A stretch of 32,847 bases of DNA, taken from Brachyspira sp. (GTDB lineage: Bacteria; Spirochaetota; Brachyspiria; Brachyspirales; Brachyspiraceae). The position numbers and the translations under genes were made by a program. Each line of letters begins with the position of its first letter. Within the stretch, counting starts at the first letter, position 1. A model generated the notes under the pieces. That model was not told where the DNA came from and did not search any database. It saw only the letters and a list, made by a program, of their open reading frames with translations. The DNA lies in NCBI RefSeq assembly GCF_029258575.1, contig NZ_JARHYI010000027.1:1-32847 (forward strand), read 5' to 3'. Shown in pieces: positions 16,888 to 24,966 of the stretch.

Positions 16888-16916
16888 TTGATTTAACTTT
16901 TATAAGCATATATAAT
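16888..16916 (+). promoter_or_regulatory. Sigma-70-type promoter of copA
   Basis: TTGATT (16888-16893), 17 bases, TATAAT (16911-16916). Transcription should begin near 16923. The leader of about 52 bases carries AGAGGG, 9 bases before the ATG at 16975. Confidence 0.75.
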
Positions 16917-16933
16917 AATATTATTATTATGCT
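16905..16933 (+). promoter_or_regulatory. Dyad over the copA -10 box, candidate operator
   Basis: AGCATA (16905-16910) and TATGCT (16928-16933) are perfect 6-base complements flanking 17 AT-only bases that include the -10 box and start site. The placement suits a repressor. No copper regulator gene is in the window, and the AT-only centre makes a chance match possible. Confidence 0.35.
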
Positions 16934-16974
16934 TTTTATGTAATAGTATTTTAATTTTAAGAGGGTTTTTATTT

Positions 16975-19251
16975 ATGAAAATGACATTAAAAATAGGTGG
17001 TATGCATTGTGCTGCATGTTCAAGAGCAGTAGAACGTGCATTGAAAAAAACAGATGGTATAGAAGATGCCAATGTAAATATAGCTACTGAAAAAGCAGTA
17101 TTTAATTACGATGAAAAAAAACTTCAATATAATGATATAGTAAATATTATAGTAAAGGCAGGATATCAGGTACTTGGTCAGGAGGAGGATCCTTCTGTTG
17201 TGAAGGCTAGGGAGATTAAGGATCAGAAAATAAGATTGATAGTTTCTGCTGTATTTTCTATACCTTTATTTTATATATCAATGGCACCTATGGTGAGTTT
17301 GGTAAAGTTTCCAATACCTAGTTTTTTGGTTCATCATATCAATCCTCAGGTTTTCTCTATAGTAGCTATACTTTTATGTGTACCTGTTATGTTATCAGGT
17401 TATAAATTTTATACATTAGGTTTTCCTGCACTTTTTAGAGGCTCTCCGAATATGGACTCTCTTGTAGCAATAGGTACAACAGCGGCTTTCAGTTATAGTA
17501 TCTATTCTACTATTTTATCTTTTATGGGTCTTAATCCTCATGGCGACAATTTATACTATGAATCAGCTGCGGTTATAATAACATTAGTACAGTTCGGTAA
17601 ATATTTAGAGGCTAGAAGTAAGGGAAAGACAGGTGAGGCTATAAAAAAACTTATGGGACTTCAGCCAAAAACAGCTACTATAATAAAAGATGGAGAAGAA
17701 AAAGAAATAAAAATTTCAGAGGTAAAAATCAATGATATAGTATTAGTTCGTCCTGGTGAGAAGATACCTGTTGATGGAGAAATAATAGAAGGATACAGTA
17801 GTGTAGATGAATCAATGCTTACAGGAGAGAGTATACCTGTTGAAAAAACTGTAGGGGATAAAGTTGTTGGTGCTTCTATAAATAAAACAGGAAGTTTTAA
17901 ATTCAAAGCTCAGAAAGTAGGAGCGGATACTGCATTAGCTCAGATAATAAAACTTGTAGAGGATGCTCAGGGTTCAAAAGCTCCTATAGCTCATATTGCA
18001 GATGTTGTATCATCTTATTTTGTACCTGCCGTAATAACTATAGCTGCAGTATCAGCGGTGATTTGGTTTATAGCTGTGCATGATTTTGTATTTGCTTTAA
18101 CTGTATTTGTATCGGTGCTTGTAATAGCATGTCCTTGTGCTTTGGGGCTTGCTACACCTACTGCTATAATGGTTGGTACTGGAAAAGGTGCTGAACTTGG
18201 CATACTTTTTAAGAATGCCGAAGCTCTAGAAGTATCAGGAAAAATAAATGCTGTTATGTTTGATAAAACAGGTACTCTTACAGAGGGTAAGCCTTATGTT
18301 ACTGATATTATTTCTAATGATAAGGATAAACTTCTTCTAATAGCGGCAAGTTCAGAAAATGGAAGCGAACATCCATTGGGTGAGGCTATAGTGAGAGAGG
18401 CTAAAGAAAAAAATATAAAACTTCTTAATATAGAAAATTTCAAAGCTATAGCTGGTTTAGGGATAGAGGTGTTTATTCATAATAAGAAAGTTTTGATGGG
18501 CAATGATAAATTAATGAAAAAAGAAAATATAAATATAGAAAATTATTATTCTGATATGGATAAACTTTCAAAAGAAGGAAAGACTCCAATGTATGTTGCC
18601 TATGATAATGAACTTTTAGGAATAATAGCTTGTGCTGATAAATTAAAACAGGAAAGCATTGAAGCTATAAAAAGACTTCATAAACTTGGAATAAAAACTG
18701 CTATGATAACAGGCGACAATAAAAACACTGCTAATTCAGTTGCCAAGGAAGCTGGAATTGATATAGTATTTGCTGAAGTTCTTCCAGAAGAGAAATCTAA
18801 TGAGGTGAAAAAACTTCAGGAGCAAGGTTTAACAGTTGCTATGGTAGGAGATGGTATAAATGATGCACCTGCTTTAACTCAGGCTAATGTAGGTATTGCT
18901 ATAGGAAGCGGTACAGATGTTGCTATTGAAAGTGCCGATATAGTTCTTGTAAAATCAAATACTAATGATGTTGTAACTGCTATAGAATTAAGCAAGGCTA
19001 CTATGAGAGATATTAAGCAGAATCTTTTCTGGGCATTCTGTTATAATGTTATAGGAATACCGATAGCCGCAGGAGTTTTACATATATTCAGAGAGCCTTT
19101 AATAGCTTCTTCTATAGGAAATTTTTTAGTTTCTATTATGGGAAGAGATTTACTTCTAAATCCTATATTTGCAGCTCTTGCTATGAGTTTAAGTTCTGTT
19201 TCTGTAGTTACTAATGCTTTGAGACTTAATTTCTTTAAACCAAGTAAATGA
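16975..19251 (+). CDS. copA: Copper-exporting P1B-type ATPase
   Basis: This 758-residue protein is full length for a one-HMA CopA. The N-terminal metal-binding domain has C12 and C15 (GMHCAAC). TGE is at 283-285, the membrane metal site C386-P-C388 is present, and the phosphorylation site is D430 (DKTGT). The HP pair is at 466-467 (SEHPLGEA) and the hinge GDGINDAP begins at 625. Helix residues typical of copper-specific members follow (CYNVIGIP and MSLSSVSVV). It pumps Cu(I) out of the cytoplasm using ATP. No CopZ chaperone or CsoR/CopY regulator is adjacent. It has its own promoter, with a dyad over the -10 box. Codon use shows more GCT, CTT and GGA than the hypothetical genes around it, as expected of a conserved, well-expressed gene. 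Confidence 0.95.
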
Positions 19252-19260
19252 TGTTTTATA

Positions 19261-19292
19261 TAAATTAAGTTTTTGAATCATACTTACTCCTA
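19261..19292 (+). repeat. Partial copy of the G-box element tail
   Basis: TAAATTAAGTTTTTGAATC followed by ATACTTACTCC resembles the 3' part of copy A (14900-14931), TAAATTAAGTTTTAAAA then ATACTCACTCC. No G-rich boxes are present, so this is either a remnant or a separate small motif just after the copA stop. Confidence 0.35.
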
Positions 19293-19327
19293 AATACCGT
19301 AGTATAATTTTATGATTTTCATTGCTA

Positions 19328-19356
19328 TTGACAGATATATTTTAAAAATATATAAT
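19328..19356 (+). promoter_or_regulatory. Consensus promoter of the metNI operon
   Basis: TTGACA (19328-19333), exactly 17 bases, TATAAT (19351-19356): a perfect sigma-70 consensus. The leader would be about 78 bases, too short and too AT-rich to hold a recognisable SAM riboswitch. Strong expression is expected unless repressed. Confidence 0.85.
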
Positions 19357-19440
19357 TATTGGTATTAATTTTCATTTATCAAAGAATAAAATTATATTTC
19401 ACACAAAGTAATAATAAAATTTTAGGGTACAGGATAATAG

Positions 19441-20493
19441 ATGATAGTTTTGGAAAATGTCAGTAAGATATTTAAAACTGCAAAAAATAAACAGCTTAAT
19501 GCAGTTAATAATGTATCTTTAAAAATAGAGAAAGGCGAAATATATGGCATAATAGGTTTTTCAGGAGCTGGTAAATCTACTTTGGTAAGATGTATAAATT
19601 TACTTGAAAGACCTACATCAGGAAAAGTTTATTTAGATGATGTGGAATTAACATCTTTACCTCCTAAACAGTTAAGAGATACTAGAAAAAAAATAGGTAT
19701 GATATTTCAGCAATTCAATTTATTCGGTTCAAGGAATGTATTTAAAAATGTTGCCTATGCATTAAGATATAGAGGACTTCCTAAAGATGAGATAGAAAAA
19801 AAAGTAATGTATCTTCTTGAGCTTGTAGATATAAAAGATAAGGCTTATGTTTATCCTTCTCAATTAAGCGGTGGGCAAAAACAGAGAGTAGCTATTGCAA
19901 GGGCTTTGGCTAATGATCCGCAAATACTTTTATGCGATGAAGCTACAAGTGCCTTGGATCCTCAAACAACTTTTTCTATATTAAAATTATTAAAGAAATT
20001 AAATGAAGAGTTGGGACTTACTATAGTGGTAATAACTCATGAAATGAATGTAGTTAAAGAGTTATGTCATAAAGTTGCCGTTATGAATAATGGTAATTTA
20101 ATAGAAGAAGGAAATATATTTGAAGTATTCTCTCGTCCTAAAAATCAAGTTACTCAGGACTTTATAGATACTACTTCTAATGTATCAAAAATATATTCGC
20201 TAGTTGAAGAAAAACATAATATAACAAAATTAAAAGCTGGTGAATGTATAGTAAGATTAAAATATAAAAAAGAAAGTGTAGGGGAGGCTTTGGTTTCCCA
20301 TATTTCTAGAAAGTTCAATGTTGATGTTAATATAATATTTGGAAATGTTGAACTTATAGATGATAGTTTGCTTGGTGGTCTTGTTGTTATACTTCATGAA
20401 AAAGAGAAAGGAGGAATAACAGGTGCAATAGATTTCCTTATAGAACAAAATGTTGATGTAGAGGTGATAACAGATGCTAGATATTCTGAATAA
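19441..20493 (+). CDS. metN: Methionine ABC importer ATP-binding protein
   Basis: This 350-residue protein has Walker A GFSGAGKS (39-46), Q-loop in MIFQQFNLF, signature LSGGQ (142-146), Walker B LLCDEATSALD (D166-E167) and the switch His in VITHEMN. The C-terminal 85 residues (from about 265, LKAGECIVRLKYKKESVGEA) match the NIL regulatory domain, which in MetN binds methionine and inhibits transport when methionine is plentiful. The stop overlaps the start of metI by 20 bases, and the metQ-like lipoprotein genes follow. The only weak point is its ribosome binding site (AGGA). Confidence 0.95.
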   Translation: MIVLENVSKIFKTAKNKQLNAVNNVSLKIEKGEIYGIIGFSGAGKSTLVRCINLLERPTSGKVYLDDVELTSLPPKQLRDTRKKIGMIFQQFNLFGSRNVFKNVAYALRYRGLPKDEIEKKVMYLLELVDIKDKAYVYPSQLSGGQKQRVAIARALANDPQILLCDEATSALDPQTTFSILKLLKKLNEELGLTIVVITHEMNVVKELCHKVAVMNNGNLIEEGNIFEVFSRPKNQVTQDFIDTTSNVSKIYSLVEEKHNITKLKAGECIVRLKYKKESVGEALVSHISRKFNVDVNIIFGNVELIDDSLLGGLVVILHEKEKGGITGAIDFLIEQNVDVEVITDARYSE

Positions 20494-21154
20494 TTTAATA
20501 CCTAATGTTATGGCGGATTTGCCTAGACTTTATCAAAGCATAATACAAACTTTTGTAATGCTTTTTTATTCTGGTATAATATCATTTTTTGTAGGTGGTT
20601 TTTTAGGTATACTTTTAATAGTTACTAAAAGATTCGGTATTATGGAAAATATAATAGTATATGAAGTTTTGAGTAAGTTGATTAATTTTTTTAGGGCTAT
20701 ACCTTTTATCATACTTCTTGCAATGCTTGTACCTCTGACCAGATTTATAATGGGTACAGCTATCGGGGTAAAGGGAGCTATTATACCATTAATATTCGGA
20801 ACTGTACCTTTTTTTGCAAGACAGATAGAAAGTGCATTATCTGAGATTAATTCGGGATTGATAGAGGCTGCTCAGTCTATGGGATCATCTCCTATAGCTA
20901 TAATTTTTAGGGTATATTTAAAAGAGAGTATTGCCCCTATAGCTAGAGGAACTACTATTACAGCTATTAGTTTGATAGGTCTTACTGCTATGGCTGGAGC
21001 TGTAGGTGCTGGAGGACTTGGTACTTATGCTATACAATCTGGATATTATAGAAATAAATTAGATATTATATATGTATCTGTAATACTTCTTGTAATACTT
21101 GTAGGTATTATACAGGCTATAGGAAATTTTGTAGTAAAAAAGTCTACTCATTAA
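20474..21154 (+). CDS. metI: Methionine ABC importer permease
   Basis: This 226-residue inner-membrane protein has about five hydrophobic helices, the usual size for MetI. The cytoplasmic EAA loop that contacts MetN is at 131-150 (EAAQSMGSSPIAIIFRVYLK). FFRAIPFIILL (72-82) and the C-terminal GAVGAGGLGTYAIQSGYYR are hallmarks of D-methionine permeases. The start lies inside metN, with GAGGTGA (20461-20467) placed 6 bases before the ATG, so translation is coupled. It partners with MetN and the downstream lipoproteins, from which it is separated by a dead ldh relic. Confidence 0.95.
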   Translation: MLDILNNLIPNVMADLPRLYQSIIQTFVMLFYSGIISFFVGGFLGILLIVTKRFGIMENIIVYEVLSKLINFFRAIPFIILLAMLVPLTRFIMGTAIGVKGAIIPLIFGTVPFFARQIESALSEINSGLIEAAQSMGSSPIAIIFRVYLKESIAPIARGTTITAISLIGLTAMAGAVGAGGLGTYAIQSGYYRNKLDIIYVSVILLVILVGIIQAIGNFVVKKSTH

Positions 21155-21176
21155 TTTTTTATAAAAGTATTTAATT

Positions 21177-21497
21177 ATGGATACTATAAAAAGAAGAAAA
21201 GTTGTTTTAATAAGGCTTGGCATGTAGGATATGTTTTTGCTTCTTAGGGTTTAGTTGAATAGATTATTTATATTGATATAGATGAAAAGAAATCATTTTC
21301 TTATGCTTTGGATATATATGATTATTTAAATGTTAAATATGAACAAAATGATGTTTATGCTTCTGTATCTGCTTTGCTTGGAAGAAATAGTGTTGAAAAA
21401 ATTATTGAACTTAATATGAATGAAGAAGAGAAAAAAAATATTTGATGAGTCTTGTAATATTATGAAAACAAATTATGAATTATCTTTAACTATGTAA
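21177..21497 (+). pseudogene. ldh: L-lactate dehydrogenase relic with large internal deletion
   Basis: Joined across frames the text reads as both ends of an L-lactate dehydrogenase. The N-terminus KRRKVVLI.LGHVGYVFA.GLVE resembles the Rossmann 'KVaLIGaG.VGssyAfa...l..e', followed by IYIDIDEKKSFSYALDIYDY ('vviDin.eka.g.a.Dl.h'). It then jumps directly to the C-terminus, EQNDVYASVSALLGRNSVEK and IIELNMNEEEKKN, and after a frameshift to FDESCNIMKTNYELSLTM and TAA. A full gene has about 310-320 residues, and some 200 central residues, including the catalytic His and substrate Arg, are gone. There are two in-frame TAGs, one early frameshift and one late. It lies between metI and the first metQ and cannot be functional. 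Confidence 0.8.
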
Positions 21498-21514
21498 TAT
21501 AAAGAGGAGAACAT

Positions 21515-22315
21515 ATGAAAAAAATAATATTATTCTTATTTTCTATAATGCTTTTTATATCATGTTCAAATACGGATAAAAATGTTAATGTTATTAAAGT
21601 TGGATATATAGGAGAGTCAGATAGGGTTATTTGGGAAGAAGTGAAAAGACAGGTTTCCAATGATAATATTAAAATAGAATTAATATCTTTTGGAGATTAT
21701 TTGCTTCCTAATCAGGCTTTGAATGATGGAGATATTGATTTGAATAATTTTCAGCATTATGCTTTTTTCAATAATGAAGTTGAAACTAAAGGTTATCAAT
21801 TAACTGCTATAGCGGATACTTGTCTTGCTGCTATGAATATATATTCTGATAATATAACTAATATTAATCAATTAAAAGAGAGAGATAAAATAGCTATACC
21901 CAATGATCCTTCTAATGGTGGAAGAGCTTTAAAAGTTTTGGAGGCTGCTGGTATTATAAAATTAAAAGATAAATCTATACAAAATCCTGTTTTGAAAGAT
22001 ATAAAAGAAAATCCTCTTAATATAGAGATAGTTGAAGTTGATGCGGGAAGTATATACAGTCTTCTTCCTGATGTTGCTTGTGCTGTTATTAATTGTAATT
22101 TTGCTTTGAATTTCGGACTTAATCCTGATACTGATTCTATATTTAAAGATAATCCTACTAATTATAATGATAAGAATTATATAAATTTAATAGCATCAAG
22201 AACTGAAGATAAGGATAATCCTATATATAAGAGAATAGTAGAGGCTTATCAATCTGATGAAGTTAAGGAAATTTATAATAAAGATTTTAAGGGGGCTTAT
22301 ATAGCTGTTTGGTAA
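21515..22315 (+). CDS. metQ: MetQ/NlpA-family methionine-binding lipoprotein, copy 1
   Basis: The protein has 266 residues. The lipoprotein signal MKKIILFLFSIMLFISC places the acylated Cys at C17. The mature part is the NlpA fold that hands methionine to MetNI: VGYIGESDRVIW at the first strand, ISFGDYLLPNQALNDGDIDL, NFQHYAFFNNEVE, AIPNDPSNGGRALKVLE and YSLLPDVACAVINCNFAL are all family blocks. AGAGGAG lies 6 bases before the ATG. It is the first of four tandem paralogues. The cluster resembles the B. hyodysenteriae blpGFEA lipoprotein genes, and this copy would be in the blpG position if collinear (inference). Confidence 0.92.
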   Translation: MKKIILFLFSIMLFISCSNTDKNVNVIKVGYIGESDRVIWEEVKRQVSNDNIKIELISFGDYLLPNQALNDGDIDLNNFQHYAFFNNEVETKGYQLTAIADTCLAAMNIYSDNITNINQLKERDKIAIPNDPSNGGRALKVLEAAGIIKLKDKSIQNPVLKDIKENPLNIEIVEVDAGSIYSLLPDVACAVINCNFALNFGLNPDTDSIFKDNPTNYNDKNYINLIASRTEDKDNPIYKRIVEAYQSDEVKEIYNKDFKGAYIAVW

Positions 22316-22336
22316 TAATGCTATATATTATGATGA

Positions 22337-22489
22337 TATAAAAAATATTCAAATCTTGGTACAAAATCTCATGTGAATTTAGTAGTCAGCAGAGAGAAAT
22401 ATGAGAGAGGCAATATTTATAAGCTACAAGCAAAAATAAAAAATAAAATTAAAGAAAACAAGTTATCAGTTATTACCGATATTTATTAA
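22337..22489 (+). pseudogene. Short coding relic between metQ copies 1 and 2
   Basis: Fifty codons, open but without a start, end in a real-looking tail: LGTKSHVNLVVSREKYERGN, then IYKLQAKIKNKIKENKLSVI and TAA. The segment HVNLVVSREKYERGNIYK is reminiscent of YINLIVSRLED...VIYK in the neighbouring MetQ proteins, so it may be the last third of another decayed solute-binding paralogue. The match is short and I hold it lightly. Confidence 0.3.
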
Positions 22490-22507
22490 ACATAATTGGA
22501 TTTTATT

Positions 22508-23299
22508 ATGAAAAAAATATTATTAACTTTATCATTATTATTTGTATTTATATCATGCAGTTCTAAAAAAAATTATGAAGTAATAAGGCTTGGATATATA
22601 GGGGAATTTGATGTAGAGATATGGGAATCATTAGGCAGCGAATTGAAAAGTAAAAAAATAGTTTTAGAGTTAATACCTTTTTCTGATTATTCTGCTCTTA
22701 ATAGAGCATTAAACAGCAAATATATAGATTTGAATCATTTTCAGCATTATGCTTATTTTATTGATGAAACTAATAAAAATGATTATTATTTGGGTATTGT
22801 AGATAGAACTTTTATCGCTTCTATGAATATATATTCAAGAAATATTACTAACTTATCGCAATTGAGTTTGGAATCAAAAATAGCTGTTCCTAAAGATCAT
22901 GTGAATTTTTCAAGAGCTTTAAAAATATTGGAATCTGTTGGTTTATTGAAATTATATAATAATAATGATGTTAATTATAATTTTACAACTAATGATATAA
23001 TAGAAAATTCTTTAAATTTGGAATTGGTAGCTATTGATGCTAATAATATATATTCTGCTATATCATCTGTTGATGCTGCTATTGTAAATTATAATTATAA
23101 TTTTGATTTTAAAAATGAGAATGTTTTATATTCTGATGATCCTAGCAAATATTATTCTGATATGTATATAAATTTGATTGTATCTAGGCTTGAAGATGTA
23201 AATAATGTTATATACAAAATAATTGCAGATACCTATAAAAACAGAGTTAAGAAATTAGTTGAATCTGGTAAATTAAAAGGTATTATTCTTAATTATTGA
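22508..23299 (+). CDS. metQ: MetQ/NlpA-family lipoprotein, copy 2 (diverged)
   Basis: The frame extends to a TTG at 22496, but the ATG at 22508 gives a clean lipoprotein signal, MKKILLTLSLLFVFISC, with Cys at 17, so I use it (263 residues). It keeps the framework (LGYIGEFDVEIWESL, LIPFSDYSALNRALN, DLNHFQHYAYFIDET, AVPKDHVNFSRALKILE). It has lost residues constant in the other copies: PNDPSNGGRAL has become PKDHVNFSRAL, and the DVACAVINCN strand has become SVDAAIVNYN. A different ligand or relaxed selection is therefore likely. The ribosome binding site is poor (GGA only). It sits between copy 1 and the wrecked copy 3. Confidence 0.88.
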   Translation: MKKILLTLSLLFVFISCSSKKNYEVIRLGYIGEFDVEIWESLGSELKSKKIVLELIPFSDYSALNRALNSKYIDLNHFQHYAYFIDETNKNDYYLGIVDRTFIASMNIYSRNITNLSQLSLESKIAVPKDHVNFSRALKILESVGLLKLYNNNDVNYNFTTNDIIENSLNLELVAIDANNIYSAISSVDAAIVNYNYNFDFKNENVLYSDDPSKYYSDMYINLIVSRLEDVNNVIYKIIADTYKNRVKKLVESGKLKGIILNY

Positions 23300-23337
23300 T
23301 TTATTAAATTATTTATTATATAATATAAAATACAATA

Positions 23338-23733
23338 ATGAAGAGAATATTACTGGTATTTACTTTGATATTTGTTAAAACCTGAAACATGCAATTTCCA
23401 AAGTATAAATGATATAATAGAAAATTACCTTAATGTGGAAATAGTAGAAGTTGATGCTGGAAGTATATATAGTTTTCTTCCTAATGTTACTTGTGCTGTT
23501 ATCAATTGTAATTATGCTATAGATTTTGGGTTTAATCTGGTAGTTGATTATATATTTAAAGATGATTCTTCTATATTATACAGGAAATTCTTTCACTAAT
23601 TTGATAGCTACAATAACTGAAGATAAAGGATAATGAATTATACAAAAAAATAGTTGCTTCTTATCAATATGCTGAAGTAGAGAAGGTATATGCTAAAGAT
23701 TTTAAGGGAGTTTATTTACCTGTTTGGAAATAA
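23338..23733 (+). pseudogene. metQ: MetQ/NlpA lipoprotein copy 3, deleted and frameshifted
   Basis: It starts MKRILLVFTLIFVKT then stops. The signal peptide runs straight into sequence equivalent to residue 146 or so of copy 4 (KPETCNFQSINDIIENYLNV), so about 130 residues including the lipobox Cys are missing. The C-terminal half is still readable (VEIVEVDAGSIYSFLPNVTC, YAIDFGF). A frameshift near 23575 (ILYRKFFH versus IYTGNSFTN) and another near 23625 precede the tail DFKGVYLPVWK. Similarity to copy 4 is high throughout, so decay appears recent. An in-frame remnant of 75 codons (23372-23599) has no signal peptide and should not be taken as a gene. Confidence 0.85.
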
Positions 23734-23767
23734 TTAAAAATAATATAAATATTTTAAGGAGAGAAAA

Positions 23768-24583
23768 ATGAAAAAAATTTTATTATTAGTATCATCGCTT
23801 ATATTATCATTATCGATATTATCATGCGGACAAAGTTCTTCAGAAAATAATCAGTTGATTAAAGTTGGTTTTGCTGGGGAGTCTGATTATCAAATTTGGG
23901 ATCCTATAGTAGCAAAATTGGCAGAAGAAGGAATAACAGTTGAATTGGTATCTTTTTCTGATTACACTATACCTAATCAGGCTCTAAATGATGGAGAGAT
24001 AGATTTGAATGCTTTTCAGCATTATGCATATTTTAATGATGAAGTATCAAATAAAAAATATAATATAACTGCTATTGCTGATACTTATATATCGGCTATG
24101 AATATTTATTCTACTAATATCACTGATATTAAAGAATTAAAAAACTGAGATAAAATAGCTATACCTAATGATCCTTCTAATGGCGGAAGAGCTTTGAAAG
24201 TACTTCAGGCTGCAGGTCTTATCAAAGTTAAGCCTGAGGCAGGAGATACTCCAAGTGTAATTGATATAATAGAAAATCCTCTTAATCTTGAAATAATAGA
24301 AATGGATGCTGGTGCAATTTACGGTGTACTTCCTGATGTTGCTTGTGCTGTTATAAATGGAAACTATGCTATAGATTTTGGTTTGAATCCGGGTACTGAT
24401 TATATATTTAGAGATGATCCTTCTATTTACAGCGGAAAATCTTTTGTTAATTTGATTGCTGCAAGAACTAAAGATAAAGATAATGAATTATACAAAAAAG
24501 TAGTTGCTGTTTATCAGTCTGAAATAATAGAGAAAGTTTATAATGAGAATTTCAAAGGTTCTTATCTTCCTACTTGGAAATAA
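23768..24583 (+). pseudogene. metQ: MetQ/NlpA lipoprotein copy 4 interrupted by one TGA (BmpB/BlpA-like)
   Basis: This would be a perfect 271-codon gene but for a TGA at codon 127 (24146-24148). The context is ELKN-stop-DKIAIPNDPSNGGRA, where the family has 'K(D/N)GDKIAIPNDPSNGGRAL', so GGA has become TGA by one transversion. Everything else is intact: AAGGAG ribosome site, lipoprotein signal ending SILSC (C20), the core blocks FQHYAYFNDEV and DVACAVINGNYAIDFGLNPG, and the tail SYLPTWK. If collinear with blpGFEA, this is the position of BlpA, also called BmpB, the 29.7-kDa immunodominant lipoprotein of B. hyodysenteriae. It may be a true null allele or a sequence error. A strong terminator follows. 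Confidence 0.85.
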
Positions 24584-24614
24584 ATTAAATATAAAATTTA
24601 ATTGTTAAAAAATT

Positions 24615-24642
24615 AAGCCCTATATAATTTTATATAGGGCTT
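24615..24642 (+). terminator. Rho-independent terminator of the metQ cluster
   Basis: AAGCCCTATATA pairs with TATATAGGGCTT over 12 bp with a 4-base loop, then TTAT. The GCCC/GGGC core is exceptional for this DNA. It lies 32 bp after the metQ copy 4 stop. The preceding run TTAAAAAATTAA makes it weakly usable from the other strand too. Confidence 0.88.
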
Positions 24643-24813
24643 TTATAAAATATAAAAACTTGTTAAAGTTAATTACCATATTAATCTGTACAAATTCTTT
24701 TTGAGTTTTTTATTATTAATACTATAAACATATCATTTTGAGGTATATTATGAACAAGTAACAAGTCTAATATATAACAGCAGCACAATTACACCATATA
24801 TAATTTACCATAA

Positions 24814-24966
24814 TATATTTTAAAGTTGAAACTGAAAAATGTTCTTATAGAGCCTTTTATAAGACTTCAATATGATCAGGCATTAAAAACAAAAGATGAA
24901 AATGGAAAAGAATGGGCAGGAGAGAATTTTTATGTAACAGCATTCAATCAGGCAGAATTTCTATAG
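24814..24966 (+). pseudogene. C-terminal coding relic, possibly an outer-membrane protein
   Basis: A 50-codon open stretch without a start reads LIEPFIRLQYDQALKTKDEN, then WAGENFYVTAFNQAEF. After a one-base shift near 24956 it continues ISIAFNNRVI. Alternating polar and hydrophobic residues resemble barrel strands, and the sequence may be the end of a lost surface protein. I cannot name the family. The remaining parts of the 637-bp spacer 24584-25220 show nothing beyond the terminator at 24615-24642. Confidence 0.3.

Follow-up and report, generated by a model that had tools for sequence, protein, structure and literature searches.

Among the closest described counterparts of the locus analyzed here is the BmpB locus of Brachyspira hyodysenteriae, which Cullen et al. 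in 2003 reportedly described as four paralogous lipoproteins and of which we take BmpB to be the product of the last gene. BmpB, Bhlp29.7 and BlpA are one B. hyodysenteriae protein, used as a vaccine and ELISA antigen (PMC4955376, PMC3305480). The presence of the antigen gene in that species is debated in print: in one German study it was not amplified from 33 (45%) B. hyodysenteriae isolates (PMC3305480), and a later German study reports it in all B. hyodysenteriae isolates (PMC4973917). In a 19-strain genome study, all 19 lipoproteins of strain WA1 were found in every strain (PMC4476648), and 32 pseudogenes are reported for the B. hyodysenteriae type strain (PMC5255933). None of PMC4955376, PMC3305480, PMC4973917 and PMC4476648 concerns the host species of the locus described below.

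We analyzed a 32,847-nucleotide stretch of Brachyspira DNA (the window), which is a whole contig of a 2.66 Mb draft genome in 155 contigs (completeness 99.26, contamination 0.96). It carries metN-like and metI-like genes followed by an array of NlpA/MetQ lipoprotein copies, three of which are referred to below as c1, c2 and c4. The relevant features are as follows.

19441-20493, + strand: metN-like ATPase gene, intact, with ABC_tran and NIL domains (PF00005, PF09383); also intact in 22 relatives
20474-21154, + strand: metI-like permease gene, intact (PF00528)
21177-21494, + strand: lactate/malate dehydrogenase gene remnant, only the 5' and 3' ends, about 200 codons missing
21515-22315, + strand: c1, first NlpA/MetQ lipoprotein copy, intact, 266 aa (PF03180, E 2.2e-71)
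22311-22465, + strand: second NlpA copy, frame-shifted C-terminal remnant (matching copy 'b' of the relative G021 at E 8e-8)
22496-23299, + strand: c2, divergent NlpA copy, intact (PF03180, E 2.6e-44); ATG at 22508 is the likelier start
23375-23730, + strand: another NlpA copy of which just the C-terminal part survives, spread over three frames (E 5e-42 to G021 copy 'd')
23757-23761, + strand: AGGAG, ribosome-binding-site-like, 5' of c4
23768-24583, + strand: c4, last NlpA copy, BmpB/BlpA type, 272 codons including the final stop, with an internal TGA
24146-24148, + strand: the in-frame TGA, codon 127 of c4
24820-24954, + strand: remnant of a vsp (variable surface protein) gene; intact relative at L039:12837-14003 (PF05540)

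The c4 frame opens with ATG at 23768 and runs through 126 sense codons, the TGA, 144 further sense codons and a TAA at 24581-24583, confirming an earlier sequence-only reading that had placed a TGA at codon 127 with 270 intact codons around it. The Pfam profile PF03180 (NlpA/MetQ) matches both pieces (E 1.5e-28 and 1.3e-38), a domain pattern around the stop that is far beyond chance. When the search tool reads through the stop, c4 scores 247.7 bits over positions 1-236 and is the top-scoring PF03180 member in a profile search of the whole genome; own-genome searches likewise place one TGA inside a full-length c4 match. The claim that expression signals are kept also held, in that the AGGAG precedes the frame and the N-terminus carries a lipobox-like lipoprotein signal ending LSC, as read by eye without a signal-peptide program. 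Sites found in a promoter scan were no more numerous than in shuffled sequence. A search for phage matches yielded none, nor did a search for plasmid matches to window positions 16900-24800.

Comparison with MetQ/NlpA lipoproteins (PF03180) shows both likeness and difference. Both halves of c4 match the family, the gene is linked to and lies 3' of metN and metI, and its N-terminus is lipobox-like; unlike those proteins, c4 has no complete two-lobed open frame, being cut after 126 residues by the TGA at codon 127, and it therefore encodes no complete binding protein. Judged from its sequence, c4 is an NlpA/MetQ family gene but not a working member. With TGA a normal stop in this genome, translation would end after 126 residues, and the cell would make at most a truncated product, predicted from the family fold to be a lipidated first half unable to form the two-lobed binding site. 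With respect to BmpB/BlpA of B. hyodysenteriae, c4 is the ortholog by position and sequence, but it resides in another species, is interrupted and belongs to an array reduced to two intact copies. Its assignment to the BmpB/BlpA position, proposed earlier, was borne out: it is last in the array and 90.0% identical in amino acids to its counterpart at the end of the type-strain array of B. hyodysenteriae, a copy that is intact.

B. hyodysenteriae as the host species is not supported. The sequence-only reading had pointed to an immunodominant lipoprotein of B. hyodysenteriae and to the importance of its loss for diagnosis. Our reference genome for B. hyodysenteriae ATCC 27164 (identified by its 32,598-base plasmid, which has the length of that strain's plasmid record and 100% identity to it across 20,000 compared bases) shares only 87.0% nucleotide identity with the window across metN and metI, and identity of these genes to any of the 22 relatives is at most 88.9%, the nearest being G021, an uncultured Brachyspira bin. 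These values lie below species-level nucleotide identity, so the host is, by this measure, a separate Brachyspira species, related but distinct. Because it is another species, nothing direct follows for swine-dysentery diagnosis, and the significance earlier attached to the finding in that respect is withdrawn.

The first half of c4 was matched in all 26 Brachyspira genomes searched, its own included. Of the 25 other genomes, G003, G013 and G019 were set aside because contig ends interrupt their last copy or because they have one divergent copy only. This leaves 22 comparable relatives, and in 22 of 22 the last copy is a single uninterrupted open reading frame. At the codon-127 column, glycine occurs in 21 and lysine in one, G021. 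The earlier statement that relatives have Gly (GGA) is thus right as to the residue and too narrow as to the codon, GGA being used in seven relatives and the other two glycine codons in 11 and three.

The remainder of the c4 coding sequence is almost unchanged. Pairwise omega between c4 and the 22 relatives is 0.09-0.20 (median among the relatives 0.12), and of the 179 columns at which these 22 all agree, just three are altered in c4, all conservatively. Had c4 been inactive over most of its branch, far more loss would be expected; the stop is accordingly, on present sequence evidence, very recent, a polymorphic allele or a sequence error. The dN of c4 to four outgroups ranks 15th of 18 (17th for the 5' half), which is on the high side but within the range of intact copies and would fit a slightly older relaxation.

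Collectively, these data lead us to favor, with a probability of about 0.75, a recent nonsense mutation as the newest step in erosion of the metNI-lipoprotein operon in a Brachyspira species other than B. hyodysenteriae, with c1 probably feeding MetNI. On this reading, the mutation is real and very recent and lies in the gene that closes the array of MetQ-like lipoproteins linked to metNI. Against this explanation, c4 is the best PF03180 scorer of the genome and hence the copy in which loss would be least expected; the somewhat high dN also counts against it.

The same near-absence of decay around the stop is how an assembly or base-calling error would look, or a minority allele carried into the consensus, with c4 intact in most cells; the genome is, moreover, a draft in 155 contigs. 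We scanned for in-frame interruptions using a reference-free coding score on both sides and thresholds of our own choosing, so that the counts have comparative value only. Seven candidates were found in 365 kb of the host genome, and 12 and 10 in 400 kb of each of two relatives. This lack of excess makes a generally error-ridden assembly unlikely, although it cannot clear this one base. Real lesions elsewhere in the same operon also speak against an artifact or minority allele, which we consider unlikely though not negligible. A further in-frame TGA, flanked by coding signal in both directions, was seen at L134:19848 of the same genome.

An interrupted frame can also arise where TGA is read as sense throughout a genome, a reading for which the c4 site alone speaks. 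The host genome encodes RF2 (prfB, L129:181-1288; 513.8 bits, above cut-off), and the start of the gene keeps the ATG...CTT TGA C arrangement of the RF2 autoregulatory frameshift site. An apparent internal TAA does not mean that prfB is broken: upstream of the usual frameshift position, the search tool had read the gene in its second frame. In the 365 kb sampled, TGA terminates 25 of 211 open reading frames of at least 200 aa, similar to B. hyodysenteriae (26 of 230 long frames) and another relative, G010 (22 of 235), and just three of the seven in-frame interruption candidates of the host genome are TGA. TGA is an ordinary stop in this genome, and we reject its genome-wide reassignment as scarcely credible.

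Programmed read-through, by selenocysteine insertion or otherwise, would yield a full-length c4 protein and would fit the coding constraint that persists 3' of the stop. The host genome has a tRNA-Sec gene above the family cut-off, so that selenocysteine machinery probably exists, and selenoproteins have been described in Brachyspira (PMC2897892). Against this, the codon-127 column holds glycine or lysine, with neither cysteine nor selenocysteine in any of the 22 relatives, and the RNA 3' of the TGA folds no better than shuffles. No hairpin was found directly 3' of the TGA (-4.3 kcal/mol, z +0.92), and for the 61 bases around the stop, 164 of 200 shuffles fold as well or better. Selenocysteine at codon 127 was therefore rejected despite the tRNA-Sec gene, and read-through of any kind appears very improbable.

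The sole exception to glycine at this column has its own likely history. In G021, the fourth and last copies have in common an exact run of 89 bases spanning codons 104-133 (L040:7935-8023 and the neighboring copy in L040:6795-7595). Since the run covers the codon-127 column, the lysine of G021 probably derives from gene conversion. This tract may also account for the position of G021, which among the relatives is closest to the window in metNI and c1 but not in the last copy. Exchange of this kind raises the idea that the array is a recombining cassette set whose copies, broken ones among them, swap segments by gene conversion, the interrupted antigen copy being a transient off-state and not a dead end. 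The longest exact runs between copies are 12-35 bases in the arrays of four other relatives examined, and within the window's own array no comparably long run was found, the longest being 26 bases. We regard the off-state idea as improbable.

The preferred reading, a recent nonsense mutation, gains context from the surrounding DNA. The description of c4 as otherwise perfect is true of the gene itself but took no account of the decayed genes that flank it. In relatives, metI and c1 are separated by a lactate/malate dehydrogenase gene of 317 aa, intact in G021 (L040:3350-4300, PF00056/PF02866); the window retains a remnant that bears stops and frame changes. The G021 array consists of five NlpA copies without internal stops, against which the first and third copies of the window are intact, the second and fourth are remnants and the fifth has the TGA. 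The dehydrogenase and the two NlpA remnants share one 3.5 kb segment with c4, the vsp remnant lies downstream, and the three neighboring lesions are not present in this sister species. The TGA thus appears, from sequence comparison, as a single episode in the gene loss that this stretch has undergone after its lineage parted from that of G021. Over that time the operon would also have lost the dehydrogenase and two more lipoprotein copies, and the TGA is most likely the newest of these losses. No description of the loss of c4 by a stop was found in the open-access literature. Nothing notable distinguishes c4 from other Brachyspira pseudogenes; it is best read as an ordinary single-lesion pseudogene, or fresh null allele, in a shrinking operon.

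If c4 is lost, its place may be filled from within the array. The best PDB match of c1 is MetQ (4yah, E 1.4e-54); c2 is more distant from MetQ (4yah, E 5.8e-23; best match 1p99, E 9.2e-28), and its IPNDPSNGGRALKVL segment has diverged. As c1 is closest to a solved MetQ, it is the likely partner of MetNI, and because whole-genome searches revealed no NlpA-family gene or second intact copy outside the array, it is also the best remaining MetQ candidate. The proposal that the first copy would have to serve MetNI therefore stands, with c1 (21515-22315) likely the remaining MetQ and now probably the protein that feeds the transporter.

These results, of modest significance, indicate that one lineage can lose the MetQ-like lipoprotein that is most conserved in Brachyspira, and that in the host lineage the metNI-lipoprotein operon is becoming smaller. 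They also advise caution in taking a BmpB/BlpA-type antigen as universal across Brachyspira, while being silent on B. hyodysenteriae itself. Array decay is seen in other lineages as well, with a frame-shifted copy in the relative G015 (L036:6772-7527) and another in G016.
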